Shown one piece after another: positions 3,475 through 30,091 of a stretch of DNA of 38,461 nucleotides (position 1 is the first letter of the stretch; each line of letters begins with the position of its first letter). The DNA comes from a virus: positions 1-38,461 of IMG/VR virus record IMGVR_UViG_3300014720_004555; one strand, written 5' to 3'. The notes beneath the pieces were generated by a model. It searched no databases. It saw only the letters and a list, made by a program, of their open reading frames with translations, and was not told the DNA's origin. A program made the position numbers and the translations under genes.

Positions 3475-3542
3475 CAATAGTTGAAATTCTTTCCACATTT
3501 CAGGATAAAAAGAAGAACAATAAGTTTATTAAATTAAAAAAA
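3475..3542. other. Leader gap before the S1-like gene
   Basis: The gap is 68 bases. It contains a weak 6-bp stem (TGAAAT with ATTTCA, 9-base loop, near 3483-3503) and then an A-rich tract directly before the ATG. There is no TATATAA element and no Shine-Dalgarno sequence, unlike the gaps that start other units, so the S1-like gene is probably read from upstream or uses a different control. An A-rich leader is the kind S1 proteins bind, so autoregulation is conceivable. Confidence 0.4.
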
Positions 3543-4670
3543 ATGGCAAGAAAAAAGAATTATACCTGCGATGACTACACCTCAGAAGAAAGATCGTTAC
3601 TCGATGAACTCTATAACGAGAGTTTCTCAAGATCTTTCCCCGAAGGAAATTATCACAACGGTAAGGAATTTGACAGCGGAAGCACCGTAAGAGTCAGAGT
3701 TGATCATATAAACAATGGGGTTGCAGTTTGCGAATCATCCATGGGTCAATCCATAGTAATAAACTTGGAGAAAGAACTAAGATCTATTAGAAACTTGGGA
3801 TATACAGAGTATGACCTTAACATAGGCGATGTTATTGATATAGTGGTATTAAAGGATAAGACCGGAACTTATTTTGGGTCACTTTCAGCGGGACACGAAC
3901 AATCAGTCAAGAAGGAGCTTGGAAAAGCTTTAGAAACCAATAATGTTGCTTTCAGTGCAAAAATAGAGTCCCTATGTAACGGAGGATTTATGGTTAATCT
4001 TTCTGGTGTTAGATGTTTCCTTCCAGGTAGTCTTGCGGCAGCCAACAGAATTATGGATTTTTCTTCATATCTTGGTAAGAAGATTAACGTCATGGTTGAA
4101 ATGTATGATGAAAAGAGAGATATTTTTGTGGTTTCGTTTAAGAAATACCTCAAAAAAATTATATTTGAAAAAGTACAAGAACTATCATTTACCGAAAAAT
4201 ATAATGGTGTTGTTACTGGATATGCAGAGAGCTTGGGACTTTTTGTTGAATGGGACGAGATATACACGGGTTTAATTCCTACGGATCAAGTTAACGGGGA
4301 CACATCTTTACTAAGCCCCGGGACTTCTATTGAATTCTGGGTCTCTGATATTAAAAACCCATCCAGAATAGGATTAACACTAAACGAACCCTCTCAGAAA
4401 AACAAATTTCTACAAGAAATGAAGGACATTTCGGTGGAACCTGGAGAAAATAAAATATATAAAGGACAGGTTAGTAAAGTTAAGACCTTTGGTGTGTTTG
4501 TTAAATTAGAAAATGGATTTAATGGACTCATAGAAAGGGAAGAGCTACTCGAGCCTGTCAATGAATATTCTCCGGGACAAGAGGTATCTTGCTCGGTTTT
4601 GAGCGTTGATACATCAACTCTCAAAATACATCTGAGAGAGGCCGAAATTGGAAAATCTACTAGCCAATAA
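3543..4670 (+). CDS. Ribosomal protein S1-like protein with four S1 (OB-fold) domains
   Basis: The product has 375 residues. Four S1-type RNA-binding repeats are visible at about residues 48-116, 135-200, 218-282 and 304-366. Repeat 2 carries the S1 signature GGFMVNLSGVRCFLPGS; repeat 4 reads KGQVSKVKTFGVFVKLENGF followed by GLIEREEL. Bacterial S1 usually has six domains (four to six in some lineages), so this is a short version. S1 proteins bind single-stranded A/U-rich mRNA leaders and bring them to the 30S subunit. The start ATG follows an A-rich leader without a Shine-Dalgarno sequence. The downstream amidoligase-like gene overlaps its 3' end. A role in steering ribosomes to phage mRNA is inferred; virion packaging, RNA protection or transcription antitermination are alternatives. 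The S1-fold call is firm, the biological role is not. Confidence 0.88.
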   Translation: MARKKNYTCDDYTSEERSLLDELYNESFSRSFPEGNYHNGKEFDSGSTVRVRVDHINNGVAVCESSMGQSIVINLEKELRSIRNLGYTEYDLNIGDVIDIVVLKDKTGTYFGSLSAGHEQSVKKELGKALETNNVAFSAKIESLCNGGFMVNLSGVRCFLPGSLAAANRIMDFSSYLGKKINVMVEMYDEKRDIFVVSFKKYLKKIIFEKVQELSFTEKYNGVVTGYAESLGLFVEWDEIYTGLIPTDQVNGDTSLLSPGTSIEFWVSDIKNPSRIGLTLNEPSQKNKFLQEMKDISVEPGENKIYKGQVSKVKTFGVFVKLENGFNGLIEREELLEPVNEYSPGQEVSCSVLSVDTSTLKIHLREAEIGKSTSQ

Positions 4671-6102
4671 TTTCTTTAGTTCCTGTCTGATTGGGATGGA
4701 ATTCGAATTCTATTCCCATTTCACAAAAAAGGAGATCGCTGAGCAGCTTTCCCCACAGATAGGAAAAAAGATTAGGGTATTTAAAAAGTACCATTCGAGA
4801 TTTATTCCCACAAGAGAACAATTTAAAATAGAACCTGATTATTCTGGAGGATCCAAGATGACTGAACTCATCACGGGTCCTCTTCCTTATTTTGAGGCTA
4901 TACCTATCCTAATAAGAATACTGAGATGGATAGAAGAAAATGGGTATACTGATAGTAAATGTGCATTTCAGTTTGGAGTTAGCTTTGATAAAGACGTATA
5001 CCCAAGCCTTCCTAGTATAGAATCCCTCAATTTGTTAAAATTCGTACTTGGTTTTGATGAGGATTATATTTGGGAAAGGTTTCCAAATAGAAAAGGTTCT
5101 CTATACGCTAAATCAATCAAAAAGGTTGTACCTGCGAATAAGTTTTTATCTCCGGGTAAACTTTCATATATTGATAAGAACCAATATAAAGTTCCTGCCG
5201 AAAAAAATAATGGAATTAATTTCACTAAGCTTAAGGATGGATATTTTGAGGTGAGATACTTGGGAGGAAAGGACTATCAAAGAAAGTATATTCAAATCAA
5301 GGAAGTTATGGATCACATAGTTTCCTATACACACCAGGTTCTTCTCTTTAATGAGGAGTTTACCCCGACAGAGGCTTCCAAACTTGAGAAATCCTTAAAT
5401 GACATCTACAAGGAGTCTTCATCGTTTGTTGAACCTGAATTATTTTTTAAGAATTTTCAGGGCCTTAGTGTTTTAGTTGATCTCAAATCCGATCAACAAA
5501 TCATCAAATCATATTTCAACCAAATTAGGGAAGTCCTTTACGATGTCATAGTTGAAAATGAAATAACTAAGGGATATCTGAATTATGACACGCAGCTCAC
5601 TAGATTTCAGCTTAAAGATGCCGAAACCACTAAGGCATATTTATTAAGAGACATGGATCTAATTGAATGTAAGATCGCGGGAAACATATACAATTGCAGA
5701 CTCTTTGGATGTGAAATAGAAAGCGGAAATCTTGAAAATTGTGACGTGATTACGAATAACAAGATCTCAAAGAGCAAGCTCTCTAAATGTGAATTAAGAT
5801 TCACAAACGATATAAATGATTCTTACATAGATAACGGGGAAAAAGAAATTAACTGCTCTGTTAATGGAGGAATAATTAGATCTGGTTTTATTGGCCAACT
5901 TGCTTTTATTTCTGACGAGACGGAAATAGTAGAGGAAAAACCAGATGGAAAGAAGAAAAGTGGAATACAGATATCCCAGGAATTTAAAGATAGAAATTAC
6001 CAGGATGCTAAAAAACCTCAGGGTGCTATGTTTAGGAACTTAAATTCTAAACCAACCGGAATTCCCGGAGCAATGGGACCGATAAATAATCTTAGAAAAT
6101 GA
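4648..6102 (+). CDS. Amidoligase-like (COOH-NH2 ligase fold) protein with pentapeptide/beta-helix-like C-terminus
   Basis: The N-terminal two thirds look like the phage branch of the amidoligase family (glutamine-synthetase/GCS-like fold, ATP-dependent amide bond formation). Visible motifs are GMEFEF (16-21, the G-x-E-x-E metal site), EPDYSGG and TELITGPLPYFEA (62-84), and EVRYLGGKDY (201-210). Where family members usually show a Cys-Gly-x-His-x-His motif this protein has CAFQFGVSFD (105-114), so both histidines are missing and activity is doubtful. Residues 333-425 form a Cys-rich ladder (ECKIAGNIYNC, RLFGCEIESGNLENC) like pentapeptide or short beta-helix repeats, followed by a polar Gly/Pro tail. 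The chosen start is TTG at 4648, overlapping the S1-like gene by 23 bases, because the ATG at 4696 would cut off the Gly of the first motif. That start is uncertain. The substrate is unknown. Confidence 0.6.
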   Translation: MENLLANNFFSSCLIGMEFEFYSHFTKKEIAEQLSPQIGKKIRVFKKYHSRFIPTREQFKIEPDYSGGSKMTELITGPLPYFEAIPILIRILRWIEENGYTDSKCAFQFGVSFDKDVYPSLPSIESLNLLKFVLGFDEDYIWERFPNRKGSLYAKSIKKVVPANKFLSPGKLSYIDKNQYKVPAEKNNGINFTKLKDGYFEVRYLGGKDYQRKYIQIKEVMDHIVSYTHQVLLFNEEFTPTEASKLEKSLNDIYKESSSFVEPELFFKNFQGLSVLVDLKSDQQIIKSYFNQIREVLYDVIVENEITKGYLNYDTQLTRFQLKDAETTKAYLLRDMDLIECKIAGNIYNCRLFGCEIESGNLENCDVITNNKISKSKLSKCELRFTNDINDSYIDNGEKEINCSVNGGIIRSGFIGQLAFISDETEIVEEKPDGKKKSGIQISQEFKDRNYQDAKKPQGAMFRNLNSKPTGIPGAMGPINNLRK

Positions 6103-8032: not shown

Positions 8033-8404
8033 ATGGCTAGAATGGTAGAAATATATCCAAGAAATCCGGACGATCCTAATTATACTCCGGGATATCTCGA
8101 GACTAACAACGAGATCGAAATCCTTATTGGTATGATCAAGAATGTGATGCTCACCAAACCTGGACAGGTTCTGGGAGATCCTTATTTTGGTATAGACTTA
8201 GAATCTTTAATCTTTGATTTTGAAGTGGATCAGTCGTCTCTTGAACAAGCTATAGCAATGCAGTTAATGACATATGTTCCCTTGTCGAGATCGACATTTC
8301 AAGTGGATTTTAAGGTGGGATTCTTTAAGGGAGATTACAGGGATGCTTGCGTTATAGATTTTGCTATAAAAGGAAACCCAATACTAGGAATAAAAATAAT
8401 ATAA
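8033..8404 (+). CDS. Baseplate wedge protein, gp25/GpW family
   Basis: The product has 123 residues, close to T4 gp25 (132). The family pattern is visible: a short N-terminus, a helix (NEIEILIGMIKNVMLTKPGQ), then GDPYFGIDLESLIFDF, matching the 'F-D-P-x-F-G-x-x-L' block, then a helix and two strands (FQVDFKVGFF, CVIDFAIKG). gp25 sits in the innermost wedge core with gp6 and gp53 and links the wedge to the sheath. The E-P-R motif usually found at the start of the second half is replaced by YVPLS. It is the first gene of the baseplate operon; the next gene starts two bases after its stop. The family call is strong from motif and synteny. Confidence 0.88.
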   Translation: MARMVEIYPRNPDDPNYTPGYLETNNEIEILIGMIKNVMLTKPGQVLGDPYFGIDLESLIFDFEVDQSSLEQAIAMQLMTYVPLSRSTFQVDFKVGFFKGDYRDACVIDFAIKGNPILGIKII

Positions 8405-8406
8405 GA

Positions 8407-10101
8407 ATGGATTTTTTATCTAAAAATAAGGCAAAAATATCGGAGCTACTATCCGAAACCCTAACTCTTGTTCAGAATAGGTATGCACAATCTGCCCAAC
8501 TTTTCACGGTTGCATCGGTTTGGGGACAAATCATCTTCGTCCTGGAAAATTTAGTCCAGTTAGTTCTGTTTTTTATAGAGGACTCAATATCGGAGCTTAA
8601 CATAAATCAGGCGACTAGGGAAGCTTCGGTCTATGGATTAGCAGCTTTGGCGGGACACACGGCTTCCAGAGCAATATCAGCAAAAGGCGAAATAGAAATA
8701 TCATGGAATGGTAAAAATTTTGATGATATTAGAGGGGGAGCAGTTCTTCTGCCCAATTACTCGGAACTTAAATGCTTAAATAATGGATCAAATTATATTA
8801 TTAAGCTGACCTCAGATTATGTCAGAATAAACCTAAATAACTCTTCCAAAATAACTGCTACCATTATAGAGGGCGTTAGAAAAACCCAGCAGTTTACCGG
8901 GACCGGAAGATTTCTTCAGAGTTATAATGTTTCTTCAAGAGGAACATCTAATATAGAGAATTTTGAGGTTGAGGTTTTAGTCAATGGACAAAAATGGAAA
9001 AGATACGAATCTCTATATGATATGCCCCGTAATTCCAACAGCTACATTGTTAAAAACTCGTTGATATCGGGGATAGATATTTTCTTCGGTAATTTCAATT
9101 TTGGTAGAGCTCCTCAACTCGGATCTATCATAGAAGTTAACTATATAGAATCGACGGGGTCCGTGGGAAATGTTAATGTTAGCGACGCATATCTTGCTCT
9201 TATGGAATTTACATCGGATGGAACTGATCTTTTTGGAAATACGGTTACTCTCAAGGACTCTTTAGCAATACAATGTACTATTGCACCTCAATTAGGAGCA
9301 AGCCAAGAGCCAATCGATCTGACGAGAATATTAGCGCCAAAAACATCGAGAAGCTTCGTTCTTGCTAATCCTGATAATTACATTACTTTCTTTGAGAAAT
9401 TTGGTGCTTTTTCAATCATAGAAGCATTTACCACATTTAATGATGATTATTTAGACGATGATAATATAATTTATTTGATATTGGTACCGGACATCAACCA
9501 GAAATTAAAGTCAAATGAAACATATTTTGATATTGGATTGAGCGAATTCAAGCTAACTAATTCACAGAGGGAAAGCATCATAAATCTTTTGGATGAAAGT
9601 GGTCAAATGGTTGTCACCACCGAAGTAAAGATATTAGATCCGGTTATTAGCAGATATGTGGTAAATATAGTTCTAACTATGTTTGAAGGATATAATCCTG
9701 AAACGATTAAAGCGGAGGTTGTTTCATTAATGAGCGATTACTTTTTATCAATCAGAAGAAGAGATAAAATACCTAGATCTGACTTAATCGCCATCATAGA
9801 AAGTGTTTCCGGGGTTGACTCAGTTTCTTTATATTTTGTTGGAGAAAATAACGAGAAAGTCAAAAAAGAAAATGCAAGCGCAGAAGAGGTGGGTTTTGAT
9901 GATTTCGGTGATATTATTATGCAGAAAGACGAGATAGTGATAATATCTGGAGGGTGGGAAGATAGAAATCGTATTTATTATGATTTAGGAGCAGATATGA
10001 ATAATCTTTCTTCAATCAATATAGATATTAGAGGAATAGTACCTCAAACTCACAATACTCAGGTTAATCAGTTTAATAAAAATGCGCTAAAAAACAAGTA
10101 A
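8407..10101 (+). CDS. Baseplate wedge protein, gp6/GpJ (Baseplate_J) family
   Basis: The product has 564 residues from the ATG at 8407, two bases after the stop of the gp25-like gene. An in-frame ATG at 8347 would overlap that gene by 58 bases and is not preferred. The N-terminus is helical (NKAKISELLSETLTLVQNRY). It is followed by the Baseplate_J-type block INQATREASVYGLAALAGHT, then a beta-rich centre. The C-terminal domain has the expected order: strand (VISRYVVNIVLTMFEGYN), helix, then DLIAIIESVSGVDSVSLYF. gp6 dimers form the inner ring of the baseplate and drive the hexagon-to-star change during sheath contraction. Order gp25-gp6 is as in T4-like and P2-like phages. T4 gp6 is 660 residues, so this is slightly short. 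Confidence 0.85.
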   Translation: MDFLSKNKAKISELLSETLTLVQNRYAQSAQLFTVASVWGQIIFVLENLVQLVLFFIEDSISELNINQATREASVYGLAALAGHTASRAISAKGEIEISWNGKNFDDIRGGAVLLPNYSELKCLNNGSNYIIKLTSDYVRINLNNSSKITATIIEGVRKTQQFTGTGRFLQSYNVSSRGTSNIENFEVEVLVNGQKWKRYESLYDMPRNSNSYIVKNSLISGIDIFFGNFNFGRAPQLGSIIEVNYIESTGSVGNVNVSDAYLALMEFTSDGTDLFGNTVTLKDSLAIQCTIAPQLGASQEPIDLTRILAPKTSRSFVLANPDNYITFFEKFGAFSIIEAFTTFNDDYLDDDNIIYLILVPDINQKLKSNETYFDIGLSEFKLTNSQRESIINLLDESGQMVVTTEVKILDPVISRYVVNIVLTMFEGYNPETIKAEVVSLMSDYFLSIRRRDKIPRSDLIAIIESVSGVDSVSLYFVGENNEKVKKENASAEEVGFDDFGDIIMQKDEIVIISGGWEDRNRIYYDLGADMNNLSSINIDIRGIVPQTHNTQVNQFNKNALKNK

Positions 10102-10104: not shown

Positions 10105-10353
10105 ATGGCAGCTAAAAAGAGCATATATGATTTTATACATTCTCAAAATGATGTTAGGCTAAACAAAGGGTTTGACTATGAAGGTAAAATATTTGAGAAC
10201 ACCTTATCAACGCAGGTTTTAAATGGAGATGAGGACAGAAGTGATATACTAGCCAGCATAGAAGCTGTAGTTTATCAGATTTTTGAAACTACCAAATACA
10301 TCAAGAACTATATAAACTATACAGTTCCTAAAAATAACAAGTACGTCAGATAA
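10105..10353 (+). CDS. Small protein of the baseplate operon
   Basis: The product has 82 residues. The gene sits three bases after the gp6-like gene, and its TAA shares one base with the next ATG (TAATG at 10351-10355), so it is locked into the operon and very likely translated. It is polar, with a probable amphipathic helix at SDILASIEAVVYQIFETTKYIKNY cut into pieces here: DILASIEAVVYQIFE and TKYIKNYINY. There is no membrane segment or known motif. Position between gp6-like and gp7-like genes suggests a small wedge or assembly factor; a gp53-like role is possible but there is no LysM-like sequence to support it. Confidence 0.6.
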   Translation: MAAKKSIYDFIHSQNDVRLNKGFDYEGKIFENTLSTQVLNGDEDRSDILASIEAVVYQIFETTKYIKNYINYTVPKNNKYVR

Positions 10354-13300
10354 TGCCATATCAAAATCTTTTATTCTTTAATAAAAAAGGGGAGCAGTAT
10401 AATCTCACATGGAATGGAGATTATTGGGAAGGTACCGTTCTTTTTCCTAAAGTCTCAGAGGAACTCTTTGAGATAGAACACATTTTTGTTCTGGAAAAGT
10501 TTTACGATCTATCTGCGAATCTGGTGTATGGTTTTCCCCATAATACGCCCGCAGTTCCCAGCACAAGCGAATGGAGAGCCAGATGGGATTCTATATACGA
10601 TGGAAAAAAAGACGTCTCTGATATAATTTTCACTTACGATCTTTCTATAGATCCGGATCTGGATAGCCCTGTACTTAATAATATTGATGTGATAAACATC
10701 TATCCTGATGAGGATCCATCTGAGTCTTTTTCCACTCCAGATGGGATTAGAATAACTGGTCTTATAAATTCATCCACTGCCCAAATTAATGTGGCTTTGA
10801 GATCATCAGAGGAGGGAATTTATGACAGAAGGCTTATTCTGGAAGACTGCAGTGACTTAACCAATATTAAAACAATACTTGTTATAGATTTTCATGGTGA
10901 AGTCGAGGGAGAGGATGATAGATTTTCTGTACTGTTATCTAATTTTGGAAGAAAATTCACTGCAGATGATTCCAAATTATTAAGGGAAACTGATCCTAAA
11001 GAGGGACTTCCTGACTGGTTAAAGATTAACGAGAAAAGAAAAGAATTACTATTAGAAGGCGATAAGATATATTCTTATTTAGGATCTTATAAGTCCCTTA
11101 TTAATGCAATAAGATTTTTTGGATATTATGATTTAAGAATAAAAGAGTACTGGCTAAATCTAAAAGCAGACGAGGGAAAAACTCTTACACCATTACAACA
11201 GAATAAAAATTTTCTTAAAAAATATGGTAATCAGAAGTCTGTGCAATCCATCCAGAATATTCTTGAGGATGAAAACCATAGGAAGTACAAACAGATAGAA
11301 ATCTATGGAAAAAAGAAAGACGGAACCTATGGACTTAAAGAGAAATATGAGGAAATATTTCCAAGTGTATCATATAAAAAAACATCCCTTTTTGGACTAT
11401 TCTATGACATAAATAGAACTAAAGAAGATGGATCTGAAGATCAATATGGGTACCCAGAAGTTGAGAATGCCTTTATGTTTTCTCCGGAGGAGGTTCTTTT
11501 AAAACTTTTTGGACTTAAAGAAAGATTAAAGAGGGATTACCTTCCACTAAATGCTAGAATTATAGATATAACAGGGGAAGGAGTTTATTTTGGAATATAC
11601 AAAACGAGGGCGTGGAATGATGAGCTTAAAATAGATGAGGTTAAGCTTGGTATAGAAGTAAAGTTTGACATTCTTCCCGAAAATGGATACGTTGAAGACC
11701 TTAGACCTTTTTATCTTAGAAATAATCCTAATATATTTCAGTACCCAGTTATTGATGGATTACCTGAGACTCCAGAGTTAAGCCATTACGGAAATATAAT
11801 AGAGCCTTATTCATCATTTCAGGAATATCAATATCCTTCTATAAGTTCACTTTCTGAATCTATTAAGCAGTTTTATATTGATGTTGAATATGATAAGATG
11901 CCTAAATTTTTAGGTGATGGCGATTACGATCCGCCTGGATATAAATTATTCAAAAATGGCAATGATTATGTTTTCCCTGCTGGATGTCCTATAGTTTTAA
12001 CTAATACAACATTCGACCTTTCCTGGGATGAAATAAATGGTGATTGGGAGGGATTAAACCCTGTTTATCCAGCAACATCACTAAGTGTTGCTAATTACTC
12101 TTCCACAGTTTCACCCTATCCAGGATATCCATTATCGGTTCAGTCATCTTCAACCAGTGTCACGATTCCCGCTTTGGTTCCCTCGCTTCAGACTTTCTTC
12201 ATTCCAACCGGACAAGATTATTTTTCCACTGTTGGTTCCGAGATTCTTTTTGTCCGAGTGCAAAATCAATCGGGAACTGAATTTATGCTGGGATATGTGA
12301 TCTCAGGGGGATATAACTCCATAACGGGTCAAATTGATATTAATATCATATACACATCGGGAAGTGGGACATTTAACTCGTGGTATGTTTCACCAGTAAA
12401 CGTGTTTAGTGACCCGTACATTTTTGATTGGTATCAGAATTTTGCAAGTCCGGGAGGATCGTATTCTTGGGACAAAATCAAGTATCTAGATTTCTATGAA
12501 ATTGAATGGACTATTTCTAAATCTGATGATCGACCTTACTATTTCACATATAGGGGAAAAATTAATGAACTTGAGATTCTTCCTCACTTCCTACCCTATG
12601 TTGGAAAATATGATGTTCAGTGTCGAGTCTGGGACACCTTGAACTCAATATCATTGGGAATTCAAAAATCCATAATAGAGGTAAAATCCAGGGATATAGA
12701 GCTAAACACAATAACGAGATTTAGGGAGTCGGAAAAGTACGATTGGAACAACACCGTTCTCTCCTGGTCTGATTATGAGTCCCAATGGATTTGGCCGGTG
12801 GAACACAGAGAAAAAGATCAGGAAATATCCCAGTTTATTAGTAATTTTCCGGAATATTCTAATAATTTTAATGAGGGACAAAACTGTGAAATTCTCACGG
12901 CTAAGCCTGAAATAAGAGCAACAGCAGGTTTTGACTATACAGCAATTTCATTTAGTATTGTGCAAATTGTAAGTCCTTCACCTGGTATGCCCGCGGAGGT
13001 ACAAACAACAACCCCTCATGGATATTCTACCGGACAGAATGTTTGGATATACGATCCTCTAGGAAATCCATATGGACTATTTCCAGTTTCGTCAATCGTT
13101 AGTCCCACTATTTTTACTATACCACAATTAATTAACACCGCTATTGTGGGAGGATACGTTTACGGACCGGGCAACATAACCATACAGGCGGATGGTGTAG
13201 AAATAACTAATGTGAATTTTGACGGAAGTCTTAATTCAGTTTCTTCCCTGATTTATCAGGCAATAAATTCATTGGTAACATATCCAGACTATACAGTTTA

Positions 13301-16300
13301 TCAATTAATAGATTCAACAATCAATACAGGGGCTAAAACTTTAATAGTGAGAGCTCCAAATGACACGGGATCTACCTGGAATGGTAAAATCCTTACTATT
13401 ACAACATCGGGATGTATTTCATCATATTCAGCGAATGTGTCATTCTCAGGGGGAGAAAATTCAAAAGATGAGTATGTTGCATACGATTTTACAACTGCAC
13501 CTCCCACGGTTAACGCATCATACTGGGGAACTAAAAAATTATGCTGGGACGTCTTTGAAGATTTTCAATTTGATGGAGCTTATGCTCACACTTGGGACAT
13601 GTATGACTATCACAACGATTGGCTGGGCGGATTTAATATGTATTCCCTGCAATACGGAGACAGAATAAAAGTGGGTAAGGATACAGAGGGAATAATTCTT
13701 GGAGAGACAGATTCCCCACCTAACACCTATTTGGATCTAAAAGAAGCTGCAGACCAGCTTAATGCTTCGAATGATTCCGGAATATCCAAATTCGAGTACA
13801 TAATCAGAAACTATTCAGAGCTTCCTTTTAATTTCGATGTTGCAGGAAATTCTATTTCGCCTGATTTATCAACAATTCCTGGTCCTAGAAATGTTGGATA
13901 TTCACATTTCACAGTTCCGTTTGCAGTCTCTTCGCCATCATCAGGAATTCCATACTCCTTGGCATGGGACTTAAATGGAGATATCTGGATATCTGGAACT
14001 GATCTGGTTAGATTTGATGGACTCAATATGGACGCATTTGATAGCACCAATAGTCCTCTGCCATCTAATGGAATGTCCACATCATTTATAGAGATCACCG
14101 AAAATGGATCAAGGTACATAGGGATCAAAGGAACAGGAACACCATTGGTTTACTGGGATGAAAGAGACTCCAGTCAGAATTTAGTTTATAATATTGGGGA
14201 TTTTACTGATAACGCAGGTAACACTGTGCTCTCATCGTCCATAGTAGATTTCAATCTCATGGAAGAAAATCCATCGACAAATGATCTCTTTATTGCATGC
14301 ACTGAGTATGGATCTCCTGGACAGAATGGGCTTTTATTCTATTGCGCTTCTGAAAAAAGTTGGAGATTATACACGACTTTAAATTCGGACCTTCCCTCAG
14401 GAACGATCCGAGATTTAAGAGTTAGATACTATAGTGACAATGAATGGTATCTTTGGATTGCAACCGATAATGGTGCGGCCAGATTTGATGGCATCGATTT
14501 TAGAGTATACAACTCCAATAACTCGGGTCTGCCTAGCAATGATGTGTATTCTATCGAGATTGATAAACTCGGACATCTATGGTTTGGAACTATGAATAAT
14601 CTTGTTTATTACGATTACAATAGATGGACAGTATGGAACAACGGGACGAATCCTGATCTATATTTAGGTGCAATCACAGACGTTGTTGAAACTCGAAATG
14701 CAAATATCTGGTTTGTTGTTGATTCTGGATCGCCTGGCAATAGGCTTCTTTATTACTTCAATGGATATAATTTCACCAAATATGAATTTAAGGCTGATGG
14801 TATTACGCCTTTAGCTCCATTAAAACTAATGTCAGCCCCATGGAAAACCATCAAAAACGGATTTACCGTTTTTCCTATGAATATACTATTCCTAAATGAT
14901 ACGGAGCTTAGCTTTGTTGATTACATAGTTCCCCATATTCATGCAGTTCCTAAATTTCCTGGATCTGAGGGATATCAATTTATTTATCATGAACCAAAAG
15001 GTCCTCTTCCTTCATTAACATATACATCCACAATGGGGGACGGTTACGGAAATCTAAATTTTAATTGGTCCCCAGGTCCTTTATACGATAATGTCACTCT
15101 AAACTCTGATGGCTTTAGACCAGATCTCCCCAATGTCGACAGATACTCGTGGAGTAAACCAATCTGGCAGAGATATAGCGTGGACAGTCTGAAAAACAGA
15201 TTTCCTTCACTAGATCTCGATCACTCTTTTCTTTATGCTCCATTGAGAGATATTATCAACGGAAAAGCAACTAATGAGTATTATTGGAAGAATCTCCCAA
15301 TCGAAAGAAGTTCCAGCAGAAAACAGAACCTTTTGATCAGCGATGTTGAATGGCTCATATCAATAGGAGATATAAGTAATGACTATCTTTTTTCTAGTAT
15401 AGTGGATAAGGAGGGAGACGTAATTGTCACCGGAAGGTATACAGGAACTATATTTGCAGGTGAAGTAAATAATATTGCAACACAGAATGTTTTTCTAACC
15501 TCGGGTAATTCTGGGGCTAATCAATCTGGATTAGTTTCCAAATACAATTCAGCGGGGGTTCTACAATGGGCAAGATCAATAGACAATTTGTCTCAAAATG
15601 TATCCATATTTAGCGTTAAAACTGATTTATTTGGTAACATATATGTAACAGGATATTACACTGATATAATTACTTCTAATAACGAATATGTGTTTATTAA
15701 CAAGTATTCTAATGATGGTAATTTATTGGTCTCTGGAATAGCCAGCACGGTGGGTACTGGACAGATTCAGTCTTTTGACATAGAGCTGGACAGATTCGGA
15801 AACATTTTTATTTCTGGAAGATTCTCTGGAACAATAACATTAGGAACTCAGTCTTTCACCACATTAGGTGTATCAGTATTTGTTTCTAAGTTGGATGAAA
15901 TTTTAAATTTTGTTTGGACAAAAAGATTTGATTCAGTGTCTGCAGGAACTGATGATATGATCATCATGGAGGATATCTATATCTATTTAACTGGATCGTT
16001 TTCAACCTCGATTGATTTTGATGGCACTGTGTTAACATCCACAGGATCAGATTTATATTTTACCAAACTGAATGCTGGAAATGGAAGCGTTTTATGGACT
16101 AAAAACTTTGGAGCTTCGTTTTCCGATAATTCTAAGATTTGTTATGATCCTAAAGGAAATTTAATTCTTAGTGGATTATATTCGGGTACTATTACAACCG
16201 ATTCCAATTCGATCTCATCTCCATCGACGTCTCTATATCTTCTTAAATTTACTCCAACTGGAAAGTCTATTTGGTCTAAAACCACTAGTGGTGGATTAGT

Positions 16301-17102
16301 ATCTGGTTATGATGTGATTAGTGATTCAGAGGAATATATTTATGTCACCGGGATCTATAGCGGATCTGCAACTTTTTCACCATCGACTGCGAATCCGATT
16401 GGAATGGATGATATATTTCTGGGCAAATGGGACAAGGATGGGGTTTTAATAGATTTAGTGACCATGGGGGGAATCAACATGGACGGGGGAACATCGCTTT
16501 CCATGGATAAGAATGAAGACCTATATCTTTCGGGGTATTTCACAGGGGCAGATTCACAATTTAGCCCATTCGTTACTGCATCTCCACAGCCCGGGGGAAC
16601 AGAAGGATTCTTATTGAAGATACCAAAGAAAAAGTACTACACTGGACTTTCTATTGGAAATATATCATCATGGCTTGGATCGCACTCTTGGTCTTGGAAG
16701 GAATCAAAGTTGTACAAGAATGAGTTTGAGATCCCCCTTGCTTCAACCATATTTATTAATCCGATAGATTCACTTGTACCCGGAAAGAAAAACCACGTAT
16801 GGACGTTATTAGACTCCGATACAGGAGAAATATTATTGAAGGTAAGGAAAACACCTTATTTTATTTATACGTTCACTAAAGAGGGGTTTTATGACGTTAT
16901 ATGCGATCTCGAAGATGCAAACGGAAACCCGGTATCTGTGAAGCACCAGGGAAAAATAAGGGTGATAGATCACAAAAACCCGGATGCTGAAGATCTAATA
17001 CCTGAATTAGTTAATAGTTTTGATTACAGATATAGAACCATCTATGGAGGTCAGAACGACAACCAGAATGCTTTTCAACCTGAAGTGAATATTGTGATCT
17101 AA
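10353..17102 (+). CDS. Giant baseplate wedge protein (gp7/GpI-like region) with two beta-propellers and PKD-like domains
   Basis: The product has 2249 residues. Near residues 214-268 a stretch (GLPDWLKINEKRKELL, then YSYLGSYKSLINAIRFFGYY, then KEYW) resembles the P2 GpI / T4 gp7 region in which a helix bundle joins the wedge to gp6. Position after gp25 and gp6 agrees. Further on are Ig/PKD-like strands (VGKYDVQCRVWDTLNS near nt 12600; TKEGFYDVICDLEDANGNP near nt 16880). Residues about 1200-1480 hold propeller blades of the two-component-regulator type (GHLWFGTMNNLVYYD). Residues about 1676-2094 hold seven SBBP-like blades (GNIYVTGYYT, GNIFISGRFSGT). T4 gp7 is 1032 residues, so more than half looks like an added surface-exposed module, probably for adhesion or sugar binding (inferred). 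The 3' end overlaps phoH by four bases. Confidence 0.75.
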   Translation: MPYQNLLFFNKKGEQYNLTWNGDYWEGTVLFPKVSEELFEIEHIFVLEKFYDLSANLVYGFPHNTPAVPSTSEWRARWDSIYDGKKDVSDIIFTYDLSIDPDLDSPVLNNIDVINIYPDEDPSESFSTPDGIRITGLINSSTAQINVALRSSEEGIYDRRLILEDCSDLTNIKTILVIDFHGEVEGEDDRFSVLLSNFGRKFTADDSKLLRETDPKEGLPDWLKINEKRKELLLEGDKIYSYLGSYKSLINAIRFFGYYDLRIKEYWLNLKADEGKTLTPLQQNKNFLKKYGNQKSVQSIQNILEDENHRKYKQIEIYGKKKDGTYGLKEKYEEIFPSVSYKKTSLFGLFYDINRTKEDGSEDQYGYPEVENAFMFSPEEVLLKLFGLKERLKRDYLPLNARIIDITGEGVYFGIYKTRAWNDELKIDEVKLGIEVKFDILPENGYVEDLRPFYLRNNPNIFQYPVIDGLPETPELSHYGNIIEPYSSFQEYQYPSISSLSESIKQFYIDVEYDKMPKFLGDGDYDPPGYKLFKNGNDYVFPAGCPIVLTNTTFDLSWDEINGDWEGLNPVYPATSLSVANYSSTVSPYPGYPLSVQSSSTSVTIPALVPSLQTFFIPTGQDYFSTVGSEILFVRVQNQSGTEFMLGYVISGGYNSITGQIDINIIYTSGSGTFNSWYVSPVNVFSDPYIFDWYQNFASPGGSYSWDKIKYLDFYEIEWTISKSDDRPYYFTYRGKINELEILPHFLPYVGKYDVQCRVWDTLNSISLGIQKSIIEVKSRDIELNTITRFRESEKYDWNNTVLSWSDYESQWIWPVEHREKDQEISQFISNFPEYSNNFNEGQNCEILTAKPEIRATAGFDYTAISFSIVQIVSPSPGMPAEVQTTTPHGYSTGQNVWIYDPLGNPYGLFPVSSIVSPTIFTIPQLINTAIVGGYVYGPGNITIQADGVEITNVNFDGSLNSVSSLIYQAINSLVTYPDYTVYQLIDSTINTGAKTLIVRAPNDTGSTWNGKILTITTSGCISSYSANVSFSGGENSKDEYVAYDFTTAPPTVNASYWGTKKLCWDVFEDFQFDGAYAHTWDMYDYHNDWLGGFNMYSLQYGDRIKVGKDTEGIILGETDSPPNTYLDLKEAADQLNASNDSGISKFEYIIRNYSELPFNFDVAGNSISPDLSTIPGPRNVGYSHFTVPFAVSSPSSGIPYSLAWDLNGDIWISGTDLVRFDGLNMDAFDSTNSPLPSNGMSTSFIEITENGSRYIGIKGTGTPLVYWDERDSSQNLVYNIGDFTDNAGNTVLSSSIVDFNLMEENPSTNDLFIACTEYGSPGQNGLLFYCASEKSWRLYTTLNSDLPSGTIRDLRVRYYSDNEWYLWIATDNGAARFDGIDFRVYNSNNSGLPSNDVYSIEIDKLGHLWFGTMNNLVYYDYNRWTVWNNGTNPDLYLGAITDVVETRNANIWFVVDSGSPGNRLLYYFNGYNFTKYEFKADGITPLAPLKLMSAPWKTIKNGFTVFPMNILFLNDTELSFVDYIVPHIHAVPKFPGSEGYQFIYHEPKGPLPSLTYTSTMGDGYGNLNFNWSPGPLYDNVTLNSDGFRPDLPNVDRYSWSKPIWQRYSVDSLKNRFPSLDLDHSFLYAPLRDIINGKATNEYYWKNLPIERSSSRKQNLLISDVEWLISIGDISNDYLFSSIVDKEGDVIVTGRYTGTIFAGEVNNIATQNVFLTSGNSGANQSGLVSKYNSAGVLQWARSIDNLSQNVSIFSVKTDLFGNIYVTGYYTDIITSNNEYVFINKYSNDGNLLVSGIASTVGTGQIQSFDIELDRFGNIFISGRFSGTITLGTQSFTTLGVSVFVSKLDEILNFVWTKRFDSVSAGTDDMIIMEDIYIYLTGSFSTSIDFDGTVLTSTGSDLYFTKLNAGNGSVLWTKNFGASFSDNSKICYDPKGNLILSGLYSGTITTDSNSISSPSTSLYLLKFTPTGKSIWSKTTSGGLVSGYDVISDSEEYIYVTGIYSGSATFSPSTANPIGMDDIFLGKWDKDGVLIDLVTMGGINMDGGTSLSMDKNEDLYLSGYFTGADSQFSPFVTASPQPGGTEGFLLKIPKKKYYTGLSIGNISSWLGSHSWSWKESKLYKNEFEIPLASTIFINPIDSLVPGKKNHVWTLLDSDTGEILLKVRKTPYFIYTFTKEGFYDVICDLEDANGNPVSVKHQGKIRVIDHKNPDAEDLIPELVNSFDYRYRTIYGGQNDNQNAFQPEVNIVI
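13957..14788 (+). repeat. Regulator-type beta-propeller blades inside the wedge protein
   Basis: About six imperfect blades can be read. Cores include DLNGDIWISGTDLVRFDG, NEWYLWIATDNGAARFDG, KLGHLWFGTMNNLVYYD and NANIWFVVDSGS. They have the '(G)xLWxGTxxGLxxxD' character of Reg_prop repeats, known mainly from periplasmic sensors of Bacteroidota hybrid two-component systems. A seventh blade may be too divergent to see. Confidence 0.65.
15379..16632 (+). repeat. Seven SBBP-like beta-propeller repeats inside the wedge protein
   Basis: Seven units of roughly 50-70 residues follow a pattern of 'D-x-x-G/E-x-(I/L)-(Y/F/I)-(V/I/L)-(T/S)-G-x-(Y/F)-(T/S)-G-(T/S)' and later '(F/L)-(V/L/T)-x-K-(Y/L/F/W)'. 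Cores: GDVIVTGRYTGT, GNIYVTGYYTD, GNIFISGRFSGT, IYIYLTGSFSTS, GNLILSGLYSGT, EYIYVTGIYSGS and EDLYLSGYFTGA. Seven units would close one propeller. Confidence 0.75.
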
Positions 17103-17770
17103 GACCCGTATTCCTTGTAGACCTCAAGAATAGCAGGAACAACTTCATGTCTATGGTTTTTCTTCAGTGTGAATACTTTTACCCCTGATACTCTTGAAGA
17201 CAAGGTGTTAAGGAAATCAAATCCAGATTCTTTCTTGTTTTTAAGATCTATTTGGGATGAGTCTCCGCAAACAGCCATTTTAGATCCAATCCCAAGTCTG
17301 CCTAATACCATTTCCATTTGGTTCATAGTTACGTTTTGAGCTTCGTCAACTATCACAAATGAATTTACTAGAGTCCTTCCCCTCATAAAGGGAAAAGGGA
17401 GGATTTCTATTAGCTGATCTGCGATCATTTTGTCAACCTTGTCCTTGTCATAAAGCATGTAGAGGTTTGAATAGATCGGCGCCAGCCATGGATCCATTTT
17501 CTCTTTTAGATCTCCCGGAAGAAATCCAATGTCCTCTTTTGCCACTGTAGGTCTTGTGATGACGATCTTCTCGATCTCACGAGTAAACATAAGATCCAAA
17601 GCAACCTGAACAGCTAATAAGGTTTTACCTGATCCCGCTGCTCCTCTTAGAACCGTAACTGGGTTTGCTAAGATGATTGATTTTGCTTCCTTTTGTTCCT
17701 CGTTGAGAGAGATTTTAAACCTAATTGGATTCTTAGGCTTTCTTTTTTGAGTGTTGTTTTGTTTCTCCAT
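17099..17770 (-). CDS. phoH: PhoH-like P-loop ATPase
   Basis: The product has 223 residues and is a standard phage PhoH. Walker A is GAAGSGKT (43-50) and Walker B is FVIVDEAQ (138-145). Between them is the PhoH-specific ITRPTVAKEDIGFLPGDLKE (71-90), and GRTLVNSF precedes Walker B. GSKMAVCGDSSQIDL (162-176) matches the sensor region. PhoH proteins are NTPases linked to RNA metabolism and, in some phages, to phosphate stress; their exact role in infection is unsettled. It is the only minus-strand gene here. Its 3' end overlaps the stop of the giant wedge gene (17099-17102), so each transcript runs antisense to the other unless stopped. Its promoter probably lies in the 121-base divergent gap at 17771-17891. 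Confidence 0.95.
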   Translation of the reverse strand: MEKQNNTQKRKPKNPIRFKISLNEEQKEAKSIILANPVTVLRGAAGSGKTLLAVQVALDLMFTREIEKIVITRPTVAKEDIGFLPGDLKEKMDPWLAPIYSNLYMLYDKDKVDKMIADQLIEILPFPFMRGRTLVNSFVIVDEAQNVTMNQMEMVLGRLGIGSKMAVCGDSSQIDLKNKKESGFDFLNTLSSRVSGVKVFTLKKNHRHEVVPAILEVYKEYGS

Positions 17771-24553: not shown

Positions 24554-27500
24554 GTGGTAAAGAAAATTTTTAAACAGAATTCTTCATTCGGAGTTTTAAG
24601 AGCAAACCCCAAAATTTCCGGAAACGTCAAGATATCTACGGATTCTAGAGGAGATATTTGGCTCAATTCTATCGATTCAAACGAGGAAATGAGTAAGTCT
24701 CAATATAAGGCCTTTAGAATTTCTCCAGATTCATCATATAATCTAGATCTCTATAATTTCTTCAATAAGGGAGAAACACCAGTGGATTTTGTTTTTGGTA
24801 TAAAAAACGAGATTTCACCACAGAAAACTCAGGTAAACGATCCTAATTTAATTTATGATTTCACCTATGCAACAGGAGTTGAGCCTCTTATATCTGATAA
24901 ATATGATGAGGATTTTAGATATCTAGCTCCCCTATGGATGGGTGGAGATATACCTGAATATTTTGTGATATTTAGATTGTCAGATCCTATTGATTACTCT
25001 TATTCTGTTCCCGTTTCTTCGCTTGTAATTGGTAACTCATACAAAGTTGTACAAAATATAAATGTTGACGCGACAGCCACTGGATATGTTCCATATTCGA
25101 TTACCTCTGGTTCTATTATTTATAATGATGGACAGACCTTTGTTGCCTCCTCTACAACATTCTCGGAAAATGGAGGAGTTGGCAATGTCATTTTACTAGA
25201 TCCACTTTTTAATCTCTCCAATGTAGAGGATCCTTCGAGTCATTTTTTAGAAAAAATTCTTCCAAAAGCAACCATAGTTGCTACATATGACATGGGAGAG
25301 TCATCAAAATTAGGAAAATACCTAAGGGGAATAAAAAACTCTAGAGAATATTCCGAATCAATGATAGATGTTAAATTTGAGGAGAACCTTCTGACTACAT
25401 ATAATGGAGTCAATTATCAGAGAGGAATATTTGATAAAAAAGGAGAATATTTTTATGGTTATGCGTCGGATCCTAAATCCCAGATAGAATTTGAGGAATA
25501 TGTGACAAATGGATTTCAGAGAAATGGAATTATTGGATCCAAACTATTGAATCTTGAGTTCTTTTTTGATGACGAGCAGTCCAACCTTTTTAGCATTAAT
25601 AGATACTTTGGACTTTATGTGAATGCAATAGATCTGGGCAAATTTAAGCTCGATGGCAATGCTCTTTATAGAGACAACGGAAACTCGGGAAACACTCCGA
25701 TTCCAAGTATGAACAACAAGGGATATTATAAAAATTCGGAAGATTACTATCAGTATAATGAGAACGGAGTAAGACTCTTTATAAATTCAGAAGACGCATT
25801 TGGATTTATTCCTAGCTCCGATGACGCCAATGTTCTAGAAGACACCAAGCTATTCTATATTCAGAATAAAAATGGGGAATTTCATTCTCTTAAGAGAGAT
25901 TTCGATTATAGCTCATCATCCCCACGACCATTTCATAGTTCATATGGAATACCTGGATATGAAAATCAATTAGTTTTACAGGATATAAAGGTAAATCTAG
26001 GTGATTTTACGGGCGGAGATCCAACAACCAGAAAACAGTACCCAGCGGGACAAACCGGTGAAAAGGGGAGATCACATTTTGTTATTAGAGTTGGGGGACA
26101 GCTATCGAACACAAATTCAGATTCTTTTATATTTTATCATCCTTTGGGATCCTTGGGAATTCCTGGTGAGAGATATGATATTTTTCTCGCTTCTGATATG
26201 TCTTCTGTTATCGATGAATGGGGCCCAGGAAGTTATTATTCTGAATCCGGAGCTTATTATTTCCATCCATTTGGTACCAATGAACAAATTGCTTCTTCTG
26301 TCGCTGGATTAATAAACGCATATAAATATAATTCATTCGAAGCATTTTCGGACGGAGACGAAGTAGCCATCAGAATCAAGGCAACAGGGTTGAGCCAGAA
26401 CAATTTATATGCTCTGGATTTCTTCCAAAATTTCTCCACACTGACGAGAATGCCCGATACCAGAAGGGGAGTTATATTCTTCAATGATGATGATGTTGCC
26501 GATATAAACTCAAAGAGGATTTTCATTGGTGGATCGGATTACCCTAAGATTCGGGTTAAAATGAAGATAGAGGATTCAAGAAAGATTATTCCCGGAAAAA
26601 CTTACGTAGAAACCGATCTTGGTATTTCCAAAGTGTCGGGAGTTTATAGATTTGTTGATCAATACTCTATCAGAAGGGGTGAAATTTTAGGTCTCAAGGA
26701 TTTCAAAACGCATGCAACGGTAGAACTTTCGGATTTTACCCATAAGGCTTCTTTTGGTGAAGGATTAATATCAGCATATGAAATATATGAGATTCCAACG
26801 GGATTATTCTCTTTTCTTGGACTTAGAGAAGTTGATATGGATTTTTGGAGTAGTGATTATGGATACACACCAACCGAAGAGTATTACAAATATCTAGACG
26901 CTCAGCCTGATGGAAAATCTCTAATTGTTCCTGGAGTAACTTATTTCGTTACCGACGGAACAGTGATAAATTATAATAGCTCAGTTATAACCGGACCGGA
27001 TTTTTTTGAAGGAGTTGTGGGTGTAGAAAGCTATTCCTTAATAACTCAATCATCCGTTTCTGAAGTTGGAGTTATACCAACCAGATTTACGAGAAATAGT
27101 CCAACACAAAACACAATTGCATCACCCTCCCTTTTTGATGGAAACATCTATCCTGATTTGGATAAATTCCCGGGTTTTTATGGTGTACAGGATTTTAAAT
27201 TTTACGATGATTCTCTAGCCATTACTAAAAAATATGATCAGATGTTTTTTGGTAAATTAGATTCTGAATATGAATACACTAAGGATAATTATTTAAAAGA
27301 GTATGTCCTTAAAAGTAGGATAGAACCATACATTACAAAATGGGCCTTGAATGGAGGGACAGACGCCAGAGGAAACGGATACAGATTAAATTCAAATTCA
27401 GCTTTTAGCCCTTTGAATTTTTCCCCTAGTTTTTTTAGAAGAACCCAGGATCCCAAGTATTTTACTCATGAATGGTACACCTTACAGACTCCCCCAGAGA

Positions 27501-30091
27501 TTCTGCCCGAGGAGAATATGCACAAGGATAAATCCTATGGATCTTCCCTCTTTTCACTAACTGATATTAAAGATGCAGACCCTAATAGAAGAGATTATTT
27601 CGTGGATTATTTTGTTCAGGAAGGTGAGGATTTTGTGTCTTTTTATCCTAATTCATCCACGATAGAGAATGTCAATTTAACTGAGAGATTTACTTTTATT
27701 AAATTCAATGATGAGTCTGGATTTTGTGAAACCCTTTTCAGAGGAGCAAGAGTTAAATTCAAAAGGAAGTTAGAAAATTTTACTGGAGAACAGGGAGCTA
27801 AGTTTTTCACAGATGACAAATTTTTCGACGGATATAAATTTTCTTGTATTTTAAAGGTTATTCAAAATATAGACGACCAGATCCAGACTCCCACTAAGCT
27901 TAGAATAATTGAAAACAGAACTTTCAAGACGATCACATTTGTTGCTGAGGTTCTTATCGATGAGCTAAGAGCAGAGAATCTGTACGACTCCAGTCCAGCC
28001 CAAATGGGAGCTCTTGACTATTTTCTGCTATATTCGTTAACCGATAAATTGAAAAGGAGCGATGTCTCCTATTCCTCCCCATCATTTATTCAATTACCTG
28101 TAATAGGGGATGTCAAATTAAGCTGCGGGTTAAACATAACTTTCATCCCCACAACGGGTGGTCAGGTTTCCAATGTTAACTCCGGTACTCCTCTTGATAA
28201 CGGTAAGATATACATAGTTGAAAATCCTGATTACGATGTGGACCTTAGAGAGGAGATTTTACTTGTTTATCCTAAAACTACTTTGCCCTCTACTGTTTCA
28301 TCGACCGGACCGGGATCTTTCTATGGAATCCCATCTTTTAGTGGTACATATACCCTTCCTTGGCCAACCGGAGTACAGCAGGATGTGTTGAACTTTAGAG
28401 AAACCGAGCCAGCATACTTCTTTGATTTTTCAGCGATAGGATATACCGCTCCGCAGGACGTCCCCGTTCCAGCGAGTTATCCGACTATATCCCAAATCCC
28501 TATCTATCAGGTTGAGGGAGGTTTAGGGCATATGAAGCCATTGATGGAGAAGCTTTCTTTTGCTAGTATCTCGATTCAGGTCAATACGGAGAATCCATTT
28601 ATAGAATATACCACATGCGTTTGGAACGAGGCTTCACAGTCTACGAATCAGCTACCAAATAAATTTAACCTTGAGTTTTCTAGTCCTTCCTTAATAGAAC
28701 AAAACACCTATGCTATTCCTCGTTTAGACGCAAATAAGCCATCCGAACTAAATGTTCAAGATATTGGATATACCATCAATAAAATAAGCGCTAGAACTGA
28801 ATTATATAGGTATGGCGGAGGCTATAATCCTATCTTTAGAGATGTTCTTAAGTTTGAAAGAACCAAGACGGATTATTTATTATCTTATGTTCCAAACGGA
28901 ACAACATTTAATGTGAAATTCGATACTAAAAGCACGGAAAACGATCTTTATGATCTGGGATCAACTAAATGTTTTTGGATTGATGATGTGGAGGCGGATG
29001 ATATAAATCTCATAAGAGGAAACACATATTATTTCGATCTCAGCGATCCGTCCAATGTCGGGAATCTTCTTTATTTCTCAGACTCTGAGATAGGATCTGG
29101 AATATCTGGAAGTTTCATAACGTATGGATACACTTCATCCGGAAATCCTGGATCCCCATCTTCTTATGTTTCCCTGTACGTTGGATATAATTTACCGGAT
29201 GAAATATTTTACGTTTCTGCAGGATCTAAATATGCGGGAGGAAAAATTAACATCATAGATCCGTTGCATTATGCTCAGACTTCTTTTGGTCCTCATAAGG
29301 ACAATTTTGGAGTGGTTAAAAATGTAAACTATAATAAGTATTCACTCAGCTATATTTTTGCTATATCACAGAATTCATCATATTCTCTGGTCTATCCTCT
29401 AGTTAATCAAACTCCTATAGATAAAAGAGATCTTTCGCTCTTTTTGAGTTCTTGGGATCCTGGTTTTATTCGCGAATATGTGAATTCCTCCAACTATAAT
29501 TCTCTGCCGGGAACCAGAAGTATGAAGGAATCTAAAAGCTTCTTTGGCAGCAAAATTATGAAAACACCAGAGCTGTTCACCCAATCAAAACAGAATCTAT
29601 ATGGAACACCGGTTATAGATGTGTTAAATCAGGATCCTGCTAATTTCCCATCCTATGAAATACTATTCGAGGAAACTCTCGATGAGATCAGAGGAATTGT
29701 ATTGCTGGATAGAATGCTAGTGAGATTCTTTAATGAAAATGGGGCGGATAAAATATTCGAAAAGATTATAATTCCTGAATTTGGATTTGGATCATTAAGC
29801 ACTGTTTCTGATGATGTTGAGGAATATATTTCTCAGAACATTATTCAAACCTACGAAGCTAAAGAGTTAAGGGCTTATGTGAGAAAAATTCCAATTGCCA
29901 ATGCAGCAACTAATCCTTATGGAGCTGTTGTTGCTAACCTTGCAGATTATGAGAAGGTTGTAAATGGATTTATACCTACGGCTGATGCAAGATTTGTTAA
30001 AAGAACAGAACGGGTTTATGAATTCTATTTGACCAAGGATCCGTCTTTTGATTACTCCATAGCATTTTCTTTTCAAATTGGAAAAATTTAG
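24554..30091 (+). CDS. Very large virion structural protein
   Basis: The product has 1845 residues from a GTG at 24554, 11 bases after the preceding stop. The N-terminus then reads KKIFKQNSSFGVLRANPKIS; starting at the next in-frame Met (residue 45) would lose this well-ordered stretch. The rest is aromatic- and Asp/Ser-rich beta-type sequence without low-complexity tracts, membrane segments, or enzyme motifs. I do not recognise a family. Its length, its place between a coiled-coil structural gene and the collagen-like fibre gene, and its composition point to a distal baseplate, long-fibre or adhesion component. A TATATAA element and a 42-base gap follow it. Confidence 0.65.
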   Translation: MVKKIFKQNSSFGVLRANPKISGNVKISTDSRGDIWLNSIDSNEEMSKSQYKAFRISPDSSYNLDLYNFFNKGETPVDFVFGIKNEISPQKTQVNDPNLIYDFTYATGVEPLISDKYDEDFRYLAPLWMGGDIPEYFVIFRLSDPIDYSYSVPVSSLVIGNSYKVVQNINVDATATGYVPYSITSGSIIYNDGQTFVASSTTFSENGGVGNVILLDPLFNLSNVEDPSSHFLEKILPKATIVATYDMGESSKLGKYLRGIKNSREYSESMIDVKFEENLLTTYNGVNYQRGIFDKKGEYFYGYASDPKSQIEFEEYVTNGFQRNGIIGSKLLNLEFFFDDEQSNLFSINRYFGLYVNAIDLGKFKLDGNALYRDNGNSGNTPIPSMNNKGYYKNSEDYYQYNENGVRLFINSEDAFGFIPSSDDANVLEDTKLFYIQNKNGEFHSLKRDFDYSSSSPRPFHSSYGIPGYENQLVLQDIKVNLGDFTGGDPTTRKQYPAGQTGEKGRSHFVIRVGGQLSNTNSDSFIFYHPLGSLGIPGERYDIFLASDMSSVIDEWGPGSYYSESGAYYFHPFGTNEQIASSVAGLINAYKYNSFEAFSDGDEVAIRIKATGLSQNNLYALDFFQNFSTLTRMPDTRRGVIFFNDDDVADINSKRIFIGGSDYPKIRVKMKIEDSRKIIPGKTYVETDLGISKVSGVYRFVDQYSIRRGEILGLKDFKTHATVELSDFTHKASFGEGLISAYEIYEIPTGLFSFLGLREVDMDFWSSDYGYTPTEEYYKYLDAQPDGKSLIVPGVTYFVTDGTVINYNSSVITGPDFFEGVVGVESYSLITQSSVSEVGVIPTRFTRNSPTQNTIASPSLFDGNIYPDLDKFPGFYGVQDFKFYDDSLAITKKYDQMFFGKLDSEYEYTKDNYLKEYVLKSRIEPYITKWALNGGTDARGNGYRLNSNSAFSPLNFSPSFFRRTQDPKYFTHEWYTLQTPPEILPEENMHKDKSYGSSLFSLTDIKDADPNRRDYFVDYFVQEGEDFVSFYPNSSTIENVNLTERFTFIKFNDESGFCETLFRGARVKFKRKLENFTGEQGAKFFTDDKFFDGYKFSCILKVIQNIDDQIQTPTKLRIIENRTFKTITFVAEVLIDELRAENLYDSSPAQMGALDYFLLYSLTDKLKRSDVSYSSPSFIQLPVIGDVKLSCGLNITFIPTTGGQVSNVNSGTPLDNGKIYIVENPDYDVDLREEILLVYPKTTLPSTVSSTGPGSFYGIPSFSGTYTLPWPTGVQQDVLNFRETEPAYFFDFSAIGYTAPQDVPVPASYPTISQIPIYQVEGGLGHMKPLMEKLSFASISIQVNTENPFIEYTTCVWNEASQSTNQLPNKFNLEFSSPSLIEQNTYAIPRLDANKPSELNVQDIGYTINKISARTELYRYGGGYNPIFRDVLKFERTKTDYLLSYVPNGTTFNVKFDTKSTENDLYDLGSTKCFWIDDVEADDINLIRGNTYYFDLSDPSNVGNLLYFSDSEIGSGISGSFITYGYTSSGNPGSPSSYVSLYVGYNLPDEIFYVSAGSKYAGGKINIIDPLHYAQTSFGPHKDNFGVVKNVNYNKYSLSYIFAISQNSSYSLVYPLVNQTPIDKRDLSLFLSSWDPGFIREYVNSSNYNSLPGTRSMKESKSFFGSKIMKTPELFTQSKQNLYGTPVIDVLNQDPANFPSYEILFEETLDEIRGIVLLDRMLVRFFNENGADKIFEKIIIPEFGFGSLSTVSDDVEEYISQNIIQTYEAKELRAYVRKIPIANAATNPYGAVVANLADYEKVVNGFIPTADARFVKRTERVYEFYLTKDPSFDYSIAFSFQIGKI

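Follow-up and report, generated by a model that had tools for sequence, protein, structure and literature searches.

Host recognition by contractile phages is usually credited to the fibres and spikes that the baseplate carries. The viral DNA discussed here raises the question of why a protein of the baseplate wedge itself should carry two beta-propellers of bacterial surface type. The window that we analysed is the whole 38,461-nucleotide stretch of IMG/VR virus record IMGVR_UViG_3300014720_004555. A first-pass annotation, made from the letters alone, had placed a GpI-like region and both propellers in a single protein of 2249 residues, and this reading held up: the open reading frame is intact, the motif is recovered by profile comparison, and Pfam and AlphaFold2 (AF2) both support the propellers. 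The gene, its parts, and the two genes ahead of it are arranged as follows.

8033 to 8404, + strand: gp25/W-like protein (hhalign against P2 W, 21.1 with a null maximum of 17.3)
8347 to 10101, + strand: gp6/J-like baseplate wedge protein, directly upstream of the 2249-residue gene (PHROG 219, E 3.6e-22)
10353 to 17102, + strand: putative GpI/gp7-type wedge protein of 2249 residues with two inserted beta-propellers, from the ATG at 10353 to the stop at 17102
10353 to 11717, + strand: conserved N-terminal core, residues 1-455, common to Bacteroidota isolate phages, Lak phages, and huge phages (PHROG 28177)
10998 to 11165, + strand: GpI-like wedge motif, residues 216-271 (hhalign against the P2 gpI family)
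12420 to 12800, + strand: beta-rich (Ig-like) middle domain, residues 690-816, with beta-strands in the AF2 model and also present in propeller-less relatives
12843 to 13877, + strand: variable beta domain and conserved adapter ahead of the propellers, residues 831-1175
13893 to 14951, + strand: propeller P1, Reg_prop type, probably seven blades, residues 1181-1533 (PF07494, PDB matches to HTCS, AF2, Foldseek matches to BT4673, BT4663, and PorZ)
14952 to 15341, + strand: linker, residues 1534-1663, well conserved inside the clade and poorly predicted by AF2
15351 to 16622, + strand: propeller P2, SBBP type, seven predicted blades, residues 1667-2090 (PF06739, seven motif strands, AF2, Foldseek)
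16689 to 16967, + strand: C-terminal PKD-like domain, residues about 2113-2205, ancestral, with HMM matches in more than 20 propeller-less relatives

The Pfam PKD match in the window protein itself is weak and under threshold. An antisense PhoH-like gene (17099-17770, - strand) directly follows the wedge gene and overlaps its stop codon, a position kept in related loci.

Assignment of the protein to the baseplate wedge draws on a pairwise profile score and on gene order. The GpI-like motif (KR...GT/GS...LG...E) scored 27.9 against the P2 gpI family by hhalign, with a null maximum of 14.7 over 60 column shuffles, and the order W-J-I (gp25-gp6-gp7) in the window is the same as in P2. Homologues in Tenacibaculum phage PTm1, PAU, and Chryseobacterium phage MA9V-1 likewise lie shortly downstream of a gp6-size gene, which in PTm1 is annotated as a wedge subunit. 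The gp25 and gp6 Pfam families gave no match in the neighboring genes, the gp25-like gene included. Direct homology to T4 gp7 was considered and rejected: the T4 gp7 domains PF21427, PF21428, and PF21456 are absent from the window protein by hmmscan, though detected in T4 gp7, and the hhalign score of T4 gp7 against the window protein fell within the null. We therefore call the protein a probable GpI-type wedge protein and not a T4 gp7 orthologue. The AF2 model of residues 1-1175 was unusable over the core (pLDDT <50 over 190-433), and its Foldseek matches included no wedge protein. P2 gpI, XM1 gp17, and T4 gp7 have in common with the window protein the GpI-like motif, the W-J-I order, and presumably one copy per wedge. 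They differ from it in length (176, 242, and 1032 residues, respectively, against 2249), and among these proteins only the one in the window has two propellers. In XM1, gp17 corresponds to T4 gp7; it is present in one copy per wedge and binds tail spikes through flexible parts (PMC10457771).

The first-pass annotation had set the propellers at residues 1200-1480 and 1676-2094, with about six Reg_prop blades and exactly seven SBBP-like blades. Two propellers are indeed there, with better boundaries at 1181-1533 and 1667-2090. In Pfam searches, Reg_prop (PF07494) matched residues 1392-1415 at 21.8 bits (gathering score 20.4, E 1.7e-4) and SBBP (PF06739) matched residues 1750-1768 at 21.9 bits (gathering score 20.5, E 1.8e-4), while phmmer against PDB sequences found the HTCS periplasmic domains 4a2l and 3v9f at E 4e-12. 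SBBP-type inner strands number exactly seven, at residues 1689, 1762, 1817, 1876, 1936, 1995, and 2056 with a spacing of ~60 residues, which bears out the earlier count for P2. An AF2 model built from 21 clade members predicted both regions as propellers, and the Foldseek comparison agreed, with pLDDT mostly 66-92 in P1 and mostly 60-89 in P2 and a poorly predicted linker between them. By strand counting on this model, P1 and P2 probably each have seven blades closed by an N-terminal strand, so that seven is a more probable number for P1 than the six proposed earlier. The top Foldseek matches were BT4673, BT4663, BT3049, PorZ, and CylK, with E values of 5e-13 to 2e-19 in the comparison with PorZ and the HTCS proteins BT4663 and BT4673. 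PorZ (T9SS, Porphyromonas gingivalis) and these two HTCS proteins also have two seven-bladed propellers per chain, but they are cellular, the HTCS proteins signaling across the membrane, whereas in the window protein the second propeller is of SBBP type and both reside in a phage wedge protein. Pfam found no Y_Y_Y domain, membrane anchor, or kinase domain of HTCS in the window protein, which places it outside that family. Matches in BFVD to cyanophage and giant-virus proteins had low TM-scores and were set aside as general propeller resemblance only.

The presence of an enzyme on the Foldseek list brings up the idea that the propellers are catalytic and degrade or modify surface polysaccharide during penetration. 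CylK (7roo) was among the top matches for P2, at 22-23% identity over about 445 columns, and propeller folds do occur in phage endosialidases (PMC4901313). CylK, however, is a specialised alkylating enzyme, and Pfam matched no glycosidase or lyase family in the window protein; we consider a catalytic role very unlikely.

A fusion of this kind could in principle be a chimera, with a phage gene joined to a bacterial one during assembly, and one independent assembly of the same phage (3300013132) does split at 14383-14400, inside P1, its contigs overlapping by about 18 bp. Against this break stand 36 other full-length copies from 33 metagenomes, of 2252-2266 residues, which share the architecture and align end to end, as well as an independent MAG contig colinear with the window protein over 2221 residues without a gap. 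On these grounds the chimera was rejected, and we give it practically no credence. One contig in a 'Bacillota' MAG (L099, JAKPAB010000039.1) is a close relative of the window phage, with a core 88% identical, and so looks misbinned.

A scan of viral contigs, which gave 80 loci, also shows how the propellers are distributed. All 37 full-length proteins with propellers, the window protein among them, belong to one clade: in the core tree a single branch (98/87) separates the propeller-bearing proteins from the rest, of which a truncated protein (L063) comes next and a propeller-less one (L070) lies outside. The adapter within residues 831-1175 is weakly detectable in L070 as well. Propeller-less relatives are 892-1783 residues long when complete on viral contigs, 853-1035 in isolate phages, and up to 1983 in huge phages. 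The deeper ones, from Tenacibaculum, Flavobacterium, and Chryseobacterium phages, Lak phages, and huge phages, all keep the N-terminal core, and most of those on viral contigs retain the C-terminal PKD-like domain together with some of the Ig-like middle. The HMMs of P1, the linker, and P2 matched none of the relatives with a more distant core. In LR756500 the propeller-less relative has 998 residues and ends in the same PKD-like domain. Because relatives lack the propellers and the copies that bear them form one clade, the most plausible reading of the region is an insertion specific to this clade, placed between the wedge part and an ancestral PKD-like C-terminus, in agreement with the first-pass view that host-type modules had been added to a wedge protein.

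The gp7-like proteins of PHROG 28177 (PAU gp21, PTm1 ORF177), of LR756500, and of the Lak phages thus have a homologous N-terminal core and often the Ig-like middle and PKD-like C-terminus, but unlike the window protein, none of these proteins from Bacteroidota or huge phages has Reg_prop or SBBP propellers. Proteins of these two types were also not found elsewhere in the LR7565xx, LR745206, and Lak-B7 genomes. Other modules have been added instead: CBM_5_12 in the LR756502 homologue (sub-threshold in LR745206) and DUF5977 in PAU. Four huge-phage homologues (L005, L011, L012, and L013) have about 900-1500 extra residues before the GpI-like core, and two of them have CBM_5_12-like matches after it. 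Two Lak-phage homologues (L006 and L014, code 15) are extended at the C-terminus by about 1200 residues, in which Pfam gave no confident match. The 'moraphages' (PMC12619734) may be related to the clade.

As for the source of the insertion, profiles of the two propellers were run against 248 genomes in the phylum of a Paludibacteraceae MAG (Bacteroidota), with 150 genomes in the phylum of a Rickettsiaceae MAG as comparison. At E<=1e-3, P1 matched in 172/248 and P2 in 82/248 of the Bacteroidota genomes. At E<=1e-10, P2 matched in 55/248 (best 1.5e-45) versus 7/150 in the comparison phylum (best 2.5e-18). The best cellular matches are proteins of secreted type, about 400-1400 residues long, many with a signal-like start; several have at the C-terminus a 'YPNPFNP...' tail of the kind typical for Por/T9SS-type sorting domains (tails and signals were recognised by eye). 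Open reading frames of kinase size (900-1390 residues) come lower in the P1 match list. The earlier suggestion of a cellular origin thus survives without its glycan-sensing kinase as the source: among the sampled genomes the nearest matches are secreted Bacteroidota proteins, and both propellers were probably acquired from surface proteins of this kind. One apparent phage match to P1, MT836126 (L009, MT836126.1), is labelled 'Bacteriophage sp.' but was discarded as probably bacterial DNA, since it encodes GH2 and seven Reg_prop repeats. The secreted Bacteroidota matches and the hosts from which phages of the core family were isolated together make a Bacteroidota host likely. The host on record for PAU is Sphingomonas, and the MAG placements of related contigs look misbinned.

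Comparison of near-identical phages indicates that the propellers can be exchanged as part of a larger block, whose equivalent in the window is the following segment.

12750 to 16682, + strand: segment matching a recombination-exchanged block, residues about 800-2110 (L022 against L021/L023)

Two members, L021 and L023, are identical in the wedge gene. In the codons for residues 1-800 and in the C-terminal domain, the DNA of L022 and L023 is 98-99% identical; over residues 801-2095 identity drops to 76-84%. Over 36 kb, most windows of this pair are 93-100% identical and the propeller cassette is 70-87%, the most diverged colinear block of the alignment; farther upstream, at 3501-5500 of the aligned contigs, identity falls as well, to 86-88%. 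Within residues 801-2095, 619/1301 codons differ (415 synonymous and 204 non-synonymous), compared with 27/804 in residues 1-800 (24 and 3) and 10/152 at the C-terminus (9 and 1). So many synonymous changes point to replacement by a diverged allele and not to fast local selection, and we read residues ~800-2110 as a block replaced by recombination between near-identical phages. For part of its P1, L023 has its nearest relatives in L050/L054/L067 (88%), a sign of a mosaic. Distance correlations over 20 clade members, the window left out, show the propellers varying together: P1 and P2 correlate with each other at r = 0.89, but their correlations with the core are no more than 0.50 and 0.53, whereas domains 456-830 and 831-1060 track the core (0.91 and 0.88). 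Strong hypervariability of the propeller loops was considered and found not to be general, as loop entropy is only slightly above that of strands and the window-L099 pair lies near the core rate. The 36-kb alignment also has an insertion near 12-13 kb that, by eye, encodes an endonuclease-like open reading frame, and an insertion at about 5900-7300 of L022, absent from L023, holds a 404-residue endonuclease-like open reading frame adjoining the gp25-like gene.

The replacement could be no more than ordinary homologous recombination at a variable gene, unrelated to host recognition. Substitutions in exchanged blocks are largely synonymous, as in the other exchanges within the wedge gene (L026/L082 and L050/L067, the former almost entirely), and the lowered identity upstream fits the same explanation. 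Among 28 near-identical pairs, a small sample with many duplicates, one clear whole-cassette replacement was seen. Within the clade, the propellers have diverged no more than the neighboring domains 456-830 and 831-1060, and the exchanged block takes in residues 801-1175 too, so the propellers are not uniquely its target. On the other hand, the L022/L023 block carries 83 non-synonymous differences in P1 alone (with 110 synonymous, in 361 codons), its divergence stands out along the 36 kb, and P1 and P2 covary. We find recombination without a bearing on the host rather unlikely and favor the reading that the block, of which near-identical phages hold different versions, probably aids host recognition.

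What the cassette would do beside dedicated fibres depends on what else the window encodes. The first-pass annotation had proposed a baseplate that reads the surface without a separate fibre, and this part of it is not supported, as the stretch 24554-37214 holds genes for collagen-type and tail-fibre-like proteins, among them the following.

24554 to 30091, + strand: separate large fibre-like protein of 1845 residues (PHROG 30742, tail fibre)
30134 to 33703, + strand: collagen-containing tail-fibre-like protein (PHROG 366; weak Pfam collagen)

With such genes present, the propellers more likely supplement fibres than replace them. They might also be purely structural, forming rigid wedge platforms that hold fibres or neighboring baseplate proteins and never bind the host directly. 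Propellers often bind proteins, fibre-like genes lie downstream, the architecture is conserved in all 36 other full-length copies, and the substitution rate is close to that of neighboring domains; the spike-binding flexible parts of XM1 gp17 (PMC10457771) supply a precedent. Yet a docking surface would be expected to stay matched to its partner, and L022 and L023, which differ by the block replacement, share 93-99% identity in the fibre-like protein encoded at 24554 in the window. Relatives, moreover, dispense with the propellers entirely. We regard a solely structural role as possible but somewhat unlikely.

Precedents argue instead for recognition at the rim of the wedge. PorZ is a cell-surface protein with two seven-bladed propellers that binds A-LPS polysaccharide (PMC8545088), a propeller in the receptor-binding protein of phage phi11 probably holds GlcNAc, and phiKZ gp131 places a seven-bladed propeller at the baseplate periphery (PMC4901313). 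Along with XM1 gp17, these cases lead us to favor, at a probability of roughly 60%, the propeller block as a surface-recognition cassette within the wedge protein that works beside separate fibres and is replaced as a block between near-identical phages. In such a mechanism, two seven-bladed propellers would have been inserted in one phage clade between the wedge part and the PKD-like domain. The N-terminal GpI-like core would assemble with gp6 in each of the six wedges of a large contractile-tailed phage, and the propellers would sit at the wedge periphery and act jointly as a cassette touching the cell surface. By analogy with PorZ, the ligand would most likely be polysaccharide or LPS, bound alongside the separate tail fibres. 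Recombination would swap the cassette and leave fixed the regions in contact with other baseplate components. A bolder proposal is that the wedge protein itself reads the receptor, with ligand binding by the propellers moving the GpI core and contributing to the contraction trigger and the double propeller acting as a host-range cassette; this we hold to be doubtful.

Large wedge-region proteins with lectin-like additions are already known. Cyanophage S-ShM2 encodes a structural protein of 6198 residues (L111:1319-19915) that is similarly placed, between gp6 and gp7, and has a baseplate-wedge domain (PF23786). Its additions, however, are lectin-like Laminin_G_3 domains, and unlike the window protein it has no Reg_prop or SBBP match. 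The CBM_5_12 addition in LR756502 is comparable. Propellers displayed at a tail or vertex, with receptor binding proposed, are found in phi11 gp45, phiKZ gp131, and PRD1 P2 (PMC4901313), but these are separate receptor-binding or peripheral proteins and not wedge scaffold. In the part of the literature that we covered, we found no Reg_prop or SBBP propellers in a phage baseplate wedge protein; as far as our searches show, this combination, its clade-wide conservation, and its block replacement are new. That a wedge scaffold carries propellers of bacterial surface type throughout a clade, and that near-identical phages differ by their replacement in one block, suggests that the baseplate core may itself incorporate recognition, and L022/L023 offer a natural allele pair for testing that idea. 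The propellers also provide a sequence marker for host-range studies of uncultivated large phages that probably infect Bacteroidota. The S-ShM2 gene annotated as gp7, which adjoins the 6198-residue gene, encodes a YHYH-domain protein, so its gp7 label is doubtful.
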